This document shows positions 23,828-32,345 of a stretch of 64,000 nucleotides of DNA, in pieces (position 1 is the stretch's first letter; each line of letters starts with the position of its first letter). Source of the DNA: Fimbriimonadaceae bacterium (GTDB lineage Bacteria > Armatimonadota > Fimbriimonadia > Fimbriimonadales > Fimbriimonadaceae); the NCBI GenBank assembly GCA_019454125.1, contig CP075365.1:1110218-1174217 (forward strand), written 5' to 3'. The position numbers and the translations under genes are program-made. Below the pieces are notes generated by a model. It saw only the letters and a program-made list of their open reading frames with translations, did not search any database and had not been told where the DNA came from.

Positions 23828-23847
23828 AATTCATCGCGGGTCTTCCG

Positions 23848-26469
23848 TTAGCCGTTGATGAAGAGCCGAACGTGGTCGACCCGAGCCTTCCAGACGGTCG
23901 GCGCAGGATTGGCCGTGTTGCGCTCGACCGTGACCCCGGCGCGGACGCGACCGTTGCCGTCAATGAACCGCTGCAGATCGCCAGTCGGGCTCGCCGAGAA
24001 CCGGCCCTTCGAAAGGGGAGTGCTGCCCATCTCGAAGTTCTCCCAGGCGTTAGCCTGGAAGTTGAACAGGCGGAGGCGGAGCGGAAGGTTCGCGATGTTG
24101 GTCTCAACTTCGGCCACCAGCGTGAGCGAACTCGGGTTCGGGTCGCTGACCGTGTGGGTCGTGATCGTGCCCGTGTTGAGGACCGCATTGCCTCCGACGC
24201 GCAACGGAGTGCGCAGGATGACCTTGCTGTTGTCGCTCTTATAGACCTCGCTCAGCCCGCCGGATTCGATCGAACCCGGAGTGAAGTCCGTGATCGATTC
24301 GGCCGGGGCCTGAGCCTCCGCGCCCGAGACGACCAGGCCGTAGGACTGGTCGATGACGCCCGGGGTCTCCGGAACGCCGTCCTGTGGCAGGTTGTCGGCC
24401 GTCACAACGATCGTCCAGACGCCCGATTGCGGGTTGTTCACAAAGACGTTCTGGATGGTGTTGCGAGTGTCGGCAGAGCCGCCCGGCGTCGTCACGTTCG
24501 GCAGGTCGTTCGCGCCGGCATTGGCGCTGCCGCCCATGCCGTTGTTGCCCCAATAGACCGTGCTGTCCGGCGCCACGACCTTCAGGCTGACCTCGTTGAC
24601 CCTGGTGGGGTTCGCGAAGGCGACGGCCCAGTAGTCGGTGTAGGCCATGGTCGCCTTGAAGGACGGCGACCCAGGGGCGACGTAGACCTGGTAGGTCTTG
24701 GACTGGAGCTGCTCGAGGTTCGTGTTCTCGTCCACGACGAGCATCTTGGATGCGTTGTCGAAAACGTTCTTCACGTTCGGCAAGCCCCAACCCTGCACCC
24801 TTCGCTCGATGTCCAACTGTTGGTTCGAGTAGGCCGCCGCAGTGTTGATCATGAGAGCCCGCGCGGTGGCGTTCTTCATGCGGTTGTCGAACACCGTCGA
24901 ACCGAGGTTCGTGTTGCCGAAGATGCCGTCGCCCCACATTTGGAAAGCCAGGCCGAAGGTGCCCGCGCTCATCGGAGTGGCCGCGCTGGTACCGCTGAAG
25001 ATGCCATACCCGCTCGGAGAGGTCGTGTATGTCGTCGTGATCTGGTCGTAGTAGAAGCAGAGGTCTGGCTTGATGCGGCCGTCGGCGGCGGGGCCGATGC
25101 TCGCGCCGTTTTGCCAGCGGTCGTCCGCGAGGTTCGCGTTGTTGAAGTGGTAAACGCCGCCGATCGCGACGATGTTCTTGCCCCAGGCTTGCGGTCGCAC
25201 CACAGTGTTGCCTGCGGCGTTCGACATCGAGTTGAGGATCACGAGGTCGGTCTTGAAGACGATCTCGTCCATATAGCTCGAAATGCCGGTGTACGACCCG
25301 GTGAGCGAGTCGCCCCAAGAGTTCGTCTCGACGACGCAGTTGAAAACGTTGACGGTGTCCTGCGTGAGAGCGAGGCGGGCCGGGCCGGACCAGTTGACTG
25401 TGTACGGAGTGGCGATGCCGTTCGCGAGGGGCATCATGCCGCGCGCGGCCGGGTTGCCCGTGCCGTCACCGACCACGGTGCCGAGCGTCGCCGTACCGTG
25501 AGAGTCGATGCCCGGGTTGTTGCGGAACGTGACACGGCTCGCGTAGTCGATGTGGTTTCGGACGAAACCGGCGTCGATGTCGTGGATGTTCACGCCCTGG
25601 CCCCGATAGTTGCCGACCGTCTCGACGTAGTTCGCACCGCTCACGATGCGAACGTTGTCCATGTCGGAGCTCGGCTCGCCCGTCGGCGCGACGAAGGTGA
25701 CGCCGTCAATCGCGGCGACCTTGCCGACCTGGGCATTCGTCAGCTCGGCCTCGATGACCTGGCCTTCTCGCGGGGAGTCGATGATCTTGCCCCCGAGCAG
25801 CTTGATCGCCATGGTGGCCTCAGCCTTCAGCTGGGCGTCGTCGCCGCTGACCACGATATCGTAATGCTTGGTCTCGAGCTTGCCCGCGAGGAAGTCTTTC
25901 TTGACCTCAGGTAGGAGGCGAAGGCCCGGGTCAAGTTTGCCGACGTAGCGGACGAAGTCCATCGAGCGGACCTGCTCGACGGCGCCCTCGGGCAGGATGA
26001 CCGCATAAGCGTTGTCCGGCACGTAGTTCAGAACCTTGCCGCCGGCCCGCACGATCGCGTCGCGGAACTGGGCCAAGGTCTGGCCGTGGAACTGGACGAG
26101 GTACGTGTTGACGCTTGCACCGGCTCGCAGCGCGGAGTCCATCGGAAGGGCGCCCTTGGTCGGGTCGAAATCGCCGTGGACGGTCCTGATCAGGCCGCTG
26201 TCCTCGCCGACCCGCTTGATGGTGGTGCCGTCGAGGGAGACGGCGAACATCTGGCGCTGCTCGTTACCGGCTGATTCTTGCCAGGTGGCCAGGCGACCCG
26301 CGGTTCCAGGAAGGTTGTGGACGGTCAGTTTGCTGACCGAGTTGTGAGTCTTGTGGAAGGCGGCTCCGCCGCCGATATTGAGCGAAGTCCAAGCTCCGAC
26401 TCGCTCCACGCGGACATCCCAAGAGCCGCTCGGGCCAAGGACAAGCATCGCTGCGAAAAGGGGGTTCAT
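23848..26469 (-). CDS. S8 family serine peptidase (subtilisin) with prodomain
   Basis: 873 residues from the ATG at 26469, which has TAGGAG at ideal distance; an upstream in-frame start would add 36 unrelated residues. Residues about 120-260 look like an inhibitor/prodomain (VNTYLVQFHGQTLAQF, YAVILPEGAVEQVRS). The catalytic domain has Asp299 (IHDIDAGF), His324 (DSHGTATLG) and Ser495 (FSGTSAATP), with the oxyanion Asn near 420. Residues about 640-760 resemble a P-type or convertase beta domain (SGVWTIVVTADNLPQDG). The N-terminal hydrophobic run is short, so export is likely but the signal is not classical. Expected to degrade extracellular protein. Confidence 0.92.
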   Translation of the reverse strand: MNPLFAAMLVLGPSGSWDVRVERVGAWTSLNIGGGAAFHKTHNSVSKLTVHNLPGTAGRLATWQESAGNEQRQMFAVSLDGTTIKRVGEDSGLIRTVHGDFDPTKGALPMDSALRAGASVNTYLVQFHGQTLAQFRDAIVRAGGKVLNYVPDNAYAVILPEGAVEQVRSMDFVRYVGKLDPGLRLLPEVKKDFLAGKLETKHYDIVVSGDDAQLKAEATMAIKLLGGKIIDSPREGQVIEAELTNAQVGKVAAIDGVTFVAPTGEPSSDMDNVRIVSGANYVETVGNYRGQGVNIHDIDAGFVRNHIDYASRVTFRNNPGIDSHGTATLGTVVGDGTGNPAARGMMPLANGIATPYTVNWSGPARLALTQDTVNVFNCVVETNSWGDSLTGSYTGISSYMDEIVFKTDLVILNSMSNAAGNTVVRPQAWGKNIVAIGGVYHFNNANLADDRWQNGASIGPAADGRIKPDLCFYYDQITTTYTTSPSGYGIFSGTSAATPMSAGTFGLAFQMWGDGIFGNTNLGSTVFDNRMKNATARALMINTAAAYSNQQLDIERRVQGWGLPNVKNVFDNASKMLVVDENTNLEQLQSKTYQVYVAPGSPSFKATMAYTDYWAVAFANPTRVNEVSLKVVAPDSTVYWGNNGMGGSANAGANDLPNVTTPGGSADTRNTIQNVFVNNPQSGVWTIVVTADNLPQDGVPETPGVIDQSYGLVVSGAEAQAPAESITDFTPGSIESGGLSEVYKSDNSKVILRTPLRVGGNAVLNTGTITTHTVSDPNPSSLTLVAEVETNIANLPLRLRLFNFQANAWENFEMGSTPLSKGRFSASPTGDLQRFIDGNGRVRAGVTVERNTANPAPTVWKARVDHVRLFING

Positions 26470-30723: not shown

Positions 30724-31091
30724 ACGCTTAGGAGCTCGGCGCTCCGCTCGACAAACGTGTGCTGTGGAGTCAGCACATGGAGCGCCCCCGGGTGGTTCGC
30801 CCAAACCGGGAGCGGGCAAGACATCGACGCTTGGTAAACCCTTTGGCCGTCGTTGGTCGTGCTCCAACCTGTCCGACAAGGAACGGTCCTCAAAAGGATG
30901 TACTGTCCAGGAAGGATGTCGACATCTTCTCCAAAGAAGTGGGCGGCTGGAGAGGACGTGCCGCCCTGTATGGTCGCATCTGCGATCACCGCGTGCGCCC
31001 TAAGGTTGACACGCATAGAGCCTTGGTTCTGAAGAAGGACAAACTCCCCCTTGACCTCGCTGCTTCTCTGAACGCCGACGATCCGGATCAT
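30720..31091 (-). CDS. hypothetical protein, possible lamin-tail-like beta fold
   Basis: 123 residues from the ATG at 31091. Function not recognised. The sequence is beta-rich: EVKGEFVLLQNQGSMRVNLRA, ILPGQYILLRT, LPVWANHPGALHVL. The pattern of a strand with V-x-L-x-N followed by an alternation of hydrophobic strands recalls bacterial lamin-tail-like domains, but the match is weak. No signal peptide or membrane segment. It overlaps pth by 4 bases at its 3' end and is preceded by the strong inverted repeat at 31181-31222. A longer frame starting at 31139 adds 16 Arg-rich residues and was not used. Confidence 0.6.
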   Translation of the reverse strand: MIRIVGVQRSSEVKGEFVLLQNQGSMRVNLRAHAVIADATIQGGTSSPAAHFFGEDVDILPGQYILLRTVPCRTGWSTTNDGQRVYQASMSCPLPVWANHPGALHVLTPQHTFVERSAELLSV

Positions 31092-31180
31092 GAATGAAAC
31101 GACCCTGGGCCTAGCCCTTGCCCACCTATAGTGACGCAAGAAGCCTACGTTATGGCGCGCGTTTTACAGATTTTCCACAC

Positions 31181-31222
31181 AAGGTTTCCACGCCCCTAAC
31201 CGATCCGCGGCGTGGAAACCTT
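31181..31222. terminator. perfect 14-bp inverted repeat, probable terminator of the MarR operon
   Basis: AAGGTTTCCACGCC (31181-31194) pairs with 31209-31222 around a 14-base loop, 9 bases past the MarR stop. There is no U tail on the minus strand, so it could instead be a protein-binding dyad for the gene at 30720. Confidence 0.55.
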
Positions 31223-31231
31223 TCCTGGCGA

Positions 31232-31696
31232 TCACTTTCGGCGGGTGCCTTCAAGGTTCGCGATAACGCGTTCCAGGAGACCGACCATCATTCCGATCTC
31301 GCTATCGGACAGGCCCTCGACCATAACTTGCTCCGATTCGGTGACAAGCTTGCGGATCTGGCGAACCAGCTTTTGCGACTGGTCGGTAAGGCGAAGAAGT
31401 TTGACGCGTCGGTCGCGTTCCGAGACGACTTGTTCAAGAAGGCCTTTTCTAACATGGCCGAACACCGTCTCGCTGAGGGTCGCGGGGGTCACGCCGAGTC
31501 GGCGGGCGACCTCGACTTGCGAGGCGTCTGACCCGGCCGCATCGATAGTCGTTAGGAGCTGGAACGTGTTCCAACCCACACCAATTTCGGCGAGGCGGGG
31601 CTCGAGCCACGAACTTTGTAGCTCGTAGACAGCTGCGATGCGCGTTCCGATCTGTTCGGAAGGCATTCGGTCAACGTACCTGAGAGGGGCGCTCAT
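31232..31696 (-). CDS. MarR family transcriptional regulator
   Basis: 154 residues with a winged-helix MarR core: a helical N-terminus (RIAAVYELQSSWLEPRLAEIGVGWNTFQLL), the DNA-binding helices ASQVEVARRLGVTPATLSETV, the beta wing VSERDRRVKLLRLTDQSQKL and a C-terminal dimerisation helix. Its start overlaps the stop of the upstream small gene by 4 bases, so it is translationally coupled to it. MarR proteins usually repress their own operon and respond to small phenolic ligands; the two paralogous small genes are the obvious candidate targets. Confidence 0.92.
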   Translation of the reverse strand: MSAPLRYVDRMPSEQIGTRIAAVYELQSSWLEPRLAEIGVGWNTFQLLTTIDAAGSDASQVEVARRLGVTPATLSETVFGHVRKGLLEQVVSERDRRVKLLRLTDQSQKLVRQIRKLVTESEQVMVEGLSDSEIGMMVGLLERVIANLEGTRRK

Positions 31697-31914
31697 GTTC
31701 TAATGTCTAAGACGGTTCTTTCCCCGGCTTCCACCGTTTGAAGGACCTTATGGCTCGTACTATGAGCGGTCATCGCGACATTTAGACTCAGTTGGGCGAG
31801 CACGACTTCGTCCCGCTTTCCTTTGCCTAAAGCACCAAGGGCGATCTCCACACTCCGCTGTGCGTTTCGCATTCCGATGATGCTCAAGTACCTGATTGTG
31901 TCGTTTTGGATCAT
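31693..31914 (-). CDS. 73-residue protein, member of a paralogous pair (A)
   Basis: Function unknown. The ATG at 31914 has AGAAGG at ideal spacing. Aligned without gaps with the 73-residue product of 31990-32211, it shares Thr6, Ile7, Leu10, Ala40, Ala47, His51, Thr53, Ser54, Ala63, Leu69, Asp70 and Ile71, and both end in L-D-I-[RK]. The pattern is two amphipathic helices. The C-terminal LDI[RK] ending and Ala/Gln-rich helices resemble the end of flagellar rod/hook proteins (FlgC/FlgG class), which is a weak analogy only. The gene overlaps marR by 4 bases. Confidence 0.7.
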   Translation of the reverse strand: MIQNDTIRYLSIIGMRNAQRSVEIALGALGKGKRDEVVLAQLSLNVAMTAHSTSHKVLQTVEAGERTVLDIRT

Positions 31915-31989
31915 GGGTGCCTTCTGGCGCGCCATCGCGTACCCTGCACCACTGAACCCTTCTGTATGTCAAGAGGCTTGGCGTCTTCG

Positions 31990-32211
31990 TCAAGCCTTAA
32001 TGTCTAGGAGGGAAGCCCGGAGGGCACCCTCGATCCTCGCCGCCGCCCGGGACGTCTCGTGTTGAATCCGAGCCGCCTCGCGAGCCGCGTTCGCCGCATT
32101 GATGTCTTGCGCCGGATATCCCGCCTTCAACGTGGCCTGTCGGAGTTGCTCCTCGACCCGCTTAAGACCGGACAGCGACGCCAGCATGGTTATCGTTGTC
32201 GATCCCATCAT
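31990..32211 (-). CDS. 73-residue protein, member of a paralogous pair (B)
   Basis: Function unknown. First gene of the small operon, 75 bases upstream of its paralogue. Starts at tandem ATG codons (32211/32208) with GAAGG upstream. It is predicted to be almost entirely helical: TMLASLSGLKRVEEQLRQAT, then a long Ala/Arg/Glu helix ending SLLDIKA. Equal length and ungapped identity at about 12 positions with the next gene argue that it is a real protein and a duplicate. A SGL near the N-terminus and LLDI at the end recall flagellar basal-body rod proteins, but the protein is too short to be one. Confidence 0.68.
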   Translation of the reverse strand: MMGSTTITMLASLSGLKRVEEQLRQATLKAGYPAQDINAANAAREAARIQHETSRAAARIEGALRASLLDIKA

Positions 32212-32345
32212 TTGACGCCACCTTCATTCTACAGGACGACTGTTCCGTTTTCGACGTCTAGTCAGATTCTGCGAAAGGACCAGAGTCCGGAAAACCCGTA
32301 GATATTAATAGTCTGCTTTGGGCGTGAGACTGCCGATCGCAGCTT

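Follow-up and report, generated by a model that had tools for sequence, protein, structure and literature searches.

The window analysed here is a stretch of 64,000 nucleotides from a bacterium of the family Fimbriimonadaceae (phylum Armatimonadota), the genome of which (G000) is assembled as a single contig of 2.65 Mb. It contains an operon in which two small genes, smallA and smallB (products SmA and SmB), precede a marR gene. The features of this locus are the following:

32226-32254, minus strand: candidate sigma-70-like promoter (TCGAAA-17-TAGAAT) directly 5' of SmA, a consensus match only.
31990-32211, minus strand: smallA (SmA), first gene of the operon, 73 aa, predicted two-helix hairpin with the C-terminus LLDIKA.
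31693-31914, minus strand: smallB (SmB), 73 aa, predicted two-helix hairpin with the C-terminus VLDIRT and a C-terminal helix judged homologous to the D0 helix of axial proteins.
31232-31696, minus strand: marR, MarR-family transcriptional regulator of 154 aa, with a 4-base overlap with SmB.
31181-31222, between marR and the LTD gene: perfect 14-bp inverted repeat, putative terminator or operator.
30729-31100, minus strand: LTD gene, 123 aa (MIRIVGVQ...), named after its weak similarity to the Lamin Tail Domain (E 0.014).

A gap of 75 bases separates SmA from SmB, and the ATG of marR overlaps the SmB stop codon by 4 bases (ATGA), an arrangement of translational coupling; the 4-base overlap had already been described in a sequence-only reading of the region and was seen again here. 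That reading had also assigned good ribosome sites to both small genes, and the one of SmB (AGAAGG, 5-6 nt 5' of the ATG) was confirmed. The equal lengths that it had reported were reproduced by translation, both frames having exactly 73 aa. This equality is contingent on the chosen start, because an alternative start of SmB at 31935 would give a protein of 80 aa; homologues favour starts near 31914. The regulator belongs to the MarR winged-helix family (Pfam MarR_2 PF12802, E 3.5e-8, 33.9 bits with the cut-off at 27). An S9 prolyl oligopeptidase gene is located upstream of the operon and a peptidyl-tRNA hydrolase gene downstream, on the opposite strand. The inverted repeat, with arms AAGGTTTCCACGCC / GGCGTGGAAACCTT and a loop of 14 nt, gives a good RNA fold (z -3.2) with no T run and might act as a terminator or as an operator for MarR. 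When about 25 upstream regions were inspected, no conserved promoter or operator was seen 5' of the operon. An AT-rich near-palindrome, AGACTATTAATATCT, lies 5' of SmA at 32290-32315 of the window and was not seen in the same-genus genome G001.

Homologues were searched in 60 relatives with the single sequences, then with the regulator as a handle and then with family profiles built from 14 SmB and 13 SmA sequences. The single-sequence searches recovered the pair, with its gene order unchanged, from several genera. Among 113 genomes of the class, the family profiles gave strong matches to SmB in 22 and to SmA in 16 (16 at E<1e-20), and 27 of the 113 carry one or both genes. Most of these relatives are metagenome-assembled, and absence calls are soft where the genomes are incomplete. 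When 291 genomes from the phylum were searched, SmB was present in 22 and was not detected outside the order to which Fimbriimonadaceae belongs. Regarding a mobile or phage origin, tblastn gave no match of SmB in plasmids and none of SmA in phages.

Conservation together with marR, proposed as a check in the sequence-only reading, was found in related genomes, where SmA-SmB-marR-LTD is the usual order; the variants are SmB-marR-LTD (G018) and SmA-marR-LTD (G004, G033, G089), and other genomes have at the same site a short gene with a similar C-terminal motif. The description of MarR as a dedicated regulator was overstated, since several genera (g31, g21, g32) keep marR-LTD while lacking both small genes, and SmB or SmA lies away from marR in G094, G044, G014, G040 and G002. 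MarR is thus the usual neighbour of SmA and SmB and not their obligate partner. The LTD gene follows marR in nearly all relatives, including those in which the small genes have been lost. Of all its neighbours, this MarR is accompanied most constantly by the 123-aa MIRIVGVQ... family (window 30729-31100; L084, L095-L104), and less constantly by the small genes.

The gene upstream of the small genes varies: it encodes an S9 peptidase in G000 and G001, a CRP-like cyclic-nucleotide-binding protein in G008, G016, G082 and G083, and a matrixin-like metalloprotease in G002, G030, G034, G004 and others. The cyclic-nucleotide-binding protein is conserved, has 157 aa and ends in ARDPW(D/E)xAT; several genera have its gene in front of the small genes (L066, L064, L067). 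The metalloprotease (HELGHLLGL motif) is encoded directly 5' of SmA in many genera (L004, L006, L009, L068), and in G002 its gene stays with SmA though marR is located elsewhere.

In comparisons of two close genomes, 17 synonymous and 3 non-synonymous differences were counted for SmB (dN/dS 0.05, dS 0.38), and 5 synonymous and 0 non-synonymous differences for SmA (dN/dS 0, dS 0.10). Both genes are under purifying selection and are therefore real protein genes. The outcome named in the sequence-only reading as fatal to it, absence of both homologues and a dN/dS signal, is clearly contradicted by homologues in 27 genomes and dN/dS values of 0-0.05.

The ungapped alignment of SmA and SmB contains 13 identities in 73 positions (M1, T6, I7, L10, A40, A47, H51, T53, S54, A63, L69, D70, I71), in agreement with the 12 or more claimed before, against a mean of 6.5 in composition-preserving shuffles (P=0.0069), which alone is modest evidence. 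BLASTP of the two sequences by themselves was not significant (E 0.24), and the case for paralogy rests for this reason on the family profiles. Comparison of the profiles with hhalign gave an end-to-end alignment with an E-value of 2.9e-6 over 63 columns, through a shared C-terminal LDI-A motif (1.2e-5 with smaller, earlier profiles). A re-run with trimmed columns scored 23.3 (E 3e-4), whereas the best of 60 column-permuted decoys scored 14.1 and the reversed profile 12.3; the E-value varies with trimming and the excess over the decoys does not. These profile comparisons indicate that SmA and SmB are paralogous, and with the recurrent SmA-SmB-marR order they bear out the proposal of a small duplicated family in an operon with marR.

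Flagellar and injectisome axial proteins share a D0 core. When the SmB profile was run against the 113 genomes, the best matches after the true members were the C-termini of FlgG in most flagellated genomes. The matched FlgG-type proteins have 260-315 aa and were aligned at positions of about 30-69 of the SmB model; eight retrieved examples, including 262-aa proteins, were FlgG by sequence, and in G000 the SmB-profile match (23856-23957) lies inside a Flg_bbr_C match (23841-23972). Because these eight loci had been chosen by profile match, more weight is given to two other results. The FlgG and FlgE of the host genome, retrieved independently through Pfam Flg_bbr_C, rank top among about 4,000 ORFs with the SmB profile, being its best matches outside its own family. 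In a search of all PDB chain sequences, the top three matches were FlgE, FlgE and FlgC, and 13 of the 21 matches (to E 10) were axial proteins, at their C-terminal helix. The direct hhalign comparison of SmB with axial C-termini gave an E-value of 2.1e-7 over 40 columns; since such pairwise E-values cover single comparisons, decoy runs were carried out, in which SmB scored 36.8, the best decoy 14.0, the reversed profile 11.7 and windows taken from the MarR alignment likewise 11.7.

Single members of the SmB family match the YscI/PscI inner rod (7.6e-6), Flg_bbr_C (2e-4), the T3SS needle, FliE, YjfB and Flagellin_C, as well as the NCBIfam models of FliE, FlgE and FlgC, in all cases below the curated cut-offs; the SmB of the window alone has no Pfam match. 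The N-terminal helix of SmB compared with the N-termini of FlgG, FlgE and FlgC by hhalign remained at decoy level, with no Flg_bb_rod-type motif. No direct match of SmA to axial proteins was found. Matches of SmA to DivIVA and AKAP, far under the cut-off, were discarded. As SmA is also helical and draws no axial matches, the signal of SmB is considered specific, and SmA is tied to flagella only through SmB. These comparisons support true homology between the C-terminal helix of SmB and the D0 helix of FlgG, FlgE, FlgC and flagellin. The flagellar-rod-like C-termini noticed in the sequence-only reading are in this way substantiated for SmB and not for SmA; the comparison with FlgC and FlgG termini that it had recommended yielded the SmB alignment given above, with FlgC among the top three PDB matches.

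AlphaFold models show a two-helix hairpin for both SmA (helices 4-29 and 37-72, pLDDT 78) and SmB (helices 2-30 and 34-72, pLDDT 81). Such hairpins are what one would expect of a coiled coil of the D0 type, although this shape by itself is not diagnostic. Foldseek searches of both models against the PDB were uninformative, retrieving generic helical hairpins only.

Genes for FlhA or Flg_bbr_C proteins are present in all 27 carriers of SmA or SmB, and none of the 14 genomes lacking both FlhA and Flg_bbr_C, at least 9 of which are >90% complete, has a small gene (Fisher P 0.02, a statistic that ignores shared ancestry). The clearest example is genus g31 (G031, G090), which has no FlhA, no Flg_bbr_C protein and no small genes, with marR and LTD intact. 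In the MarR tree this genus is nested with the carriers G005 and G034 (support 96/92), and therefore the small genes were probably lost together with flagella in the g31 lineage. The class-wide search also found many flagellated relatives without either small gene; SmA and SmB are not essential, because most flagellated relatives lack both. None of the loci examined has SmA or SmB inside a flagellar gene cluster. The host genome encodes FlgB (138 aa), FlgC (129 aa), FliE (96 aa) and FliF clustered elsewhere, and FlgG, FlgF, FlgE, FlgK and FlgL at further loci, so that the small proteins would be additions to the flagellar set. In G033, a single-contig genome, FlhA appears as two abutting fragments (C1 2288493-2290471), possibly due to a frameshift or a sequencing error.

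Several known systems resemble the small proteins in part. As in FlgG, FlgE and FlgC (Flg_bbr_C PF06429), the C-terminal ~40 residues of SmB are colinear and carry a hydrophobic-D-hydrophobic motif near the C-terminus; unlike them, SmA and SmB have only 70-75 aa, without a Dc/D1 domain, and lie outside flagellar operons, and SmB has no recognisable NNLANVNT region at its N-terminus as found in FlgG. The D0 domain is the helical coiled coil of axial-protein termini, FliE is nearly D0-only, and its helices alpha2 and alpha3 form D0, seated on FliP/FliR (PMC11673145). SmA and SmB share with FliE and the inner-rod proteins (YscI/PscI, HrpB2) a small, helical and near-D0-only build, and several SmB members match these weakly. 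Unlike FliE, which the host genome encodes separately, they are predicted to have two helices only, and unlike the case of an injectisome inner rod, G000 lacks an additional export gate of the FlhA type. The idea that SmB serves a further type III system was rejected, given the single FlhA of G000 and at most one in nearly all relatives.

The 'putative motility protein' YjfB (PF14070), an uncharacterised member of a flagellar gene sub-module (PMC10802407), is also very short and helical and ends in (I/L)DIR(V/A). The SmB profile scored 24.6 against YjfB-like relatives (decoy maximum 16.8), and SmA did not match YjfB. In contrast to the small genes, YjfB-like genes are found at separate loci in the same genomes, beside a sigma-factor gene. 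Membership in YjfB was rejected for SmA and SmB: the best SmB member reached 20.2 bits against the 27-bit cut-off, in a partial, out-of-register match, and no SmA or SmB locus exceeded this cut-off in the class-wide search. ArmR, a small helical antirepressor of the MarR-family regulator MexR (PMC3290565), is likewise a small protein linked to such a regulator; unlike the case of ArmR, SmA and SmB occur without marR, marR occurs without them, and SmB has axial homology.

A flagellar function is supported by the constraint on both genes, their paralogy, the homology of the SmB C-terminus, the predicted hairpins and an occurrence only with flagellar genes. On balance, we think it somewhat probable that SmA and SmB belong to the flagellum as accessory, axial-like proteins of a D0-only type. 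They would be paralogous single-domain relatives of rod, hook and filament proteins, cut down to a D0-like two-helix hairpin without Dc/D1. Their export may proceed by way of the type III gate of the flagellum, and the C-terminal helix could pack on axial proteins, the export gate or the rod, where they would serve at the flagellum base as a plug, an adaptor or an accessory subunit, as for FliE or a YscI-type injectisome inner rod. MarR, made from the same mRNA, would probably set the level of SmA and SmB together with the LTD protein in response to some signal. An improbable further step is that they form a new lineage-restricted class of D0-only mini-proteins, acting as a paralogous pair, with production or export coupled to MarR, linking assembly state to transcription in a manner unlike sigma-28/FlgM.

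A convergent origin of short amphipathic helical hairpins that resemble D0, with a function unrelated to flagella, appears rather unlikely. The generic Foldseek hairpins, the lack of an axial match for SmA and the location outside flagellar clusters would agree with it, but the permuted, reversed and MarR-window decoys never came near the SmB score, axial proteins dominate the unbiased PDB sequence search, and the absence of axial matches for the equally helical SmA makes the signal specific. The recurrent adjacency to marR, the translational coupling between SmB and marR and the precedent of ArmR and MexR (PMC3290565) could also be accounted for by cytoplasmic partners of MarR that relieve repression as ArmR does, with a borrowed D0-like helix, or, as a variant, by an export-gated switch like FlgM, with assembly state signalled by the loss of SmB through the flagellar gate. 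This possibility is considered unlikely: the genomes with marR-LTD without small genes, and those with SmB or SmA without adjoining marR, argue against an obligate partnership, and a purely cytoplasmic role does not predict axial homology or co-loss with flagella. That SmB is the FliE or FlgB of the host, as the matches of individual members to FliE models might suggest, is hardly credible; it is refuted for this genome by the joint flgBC-fliE-fliF cluster elsewhere, and FlgG, FlgF, FlgE, FlgK and FlgL are present too. The best FliE match among SmB members, at 20.4 bits, stayed below the cut-off of 22.4.

A literature search retrieved little flagellar biology for Fimbriimonadia, a class for which accessory flagellar proteins such as SmA and SmB would provide testable genes. 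A family nearly reduced to the D0 core, encoded outside flagellar operons and linked to a regulator, would show the minimum needed for entry into export and assembly, and it may shed light on further very small flagellar proteins that await characterisation, YjfB among them. In two genera, YjfB-like proteins with 57-66 aa and the C-terminus LDIRA or IDIRA are encoded directly downstream of a gene that, judged by eye, resembles an ECF-type sigma factor, at L220:4168-4958 (G000 C1 57167-57957) and L212:814-1644.
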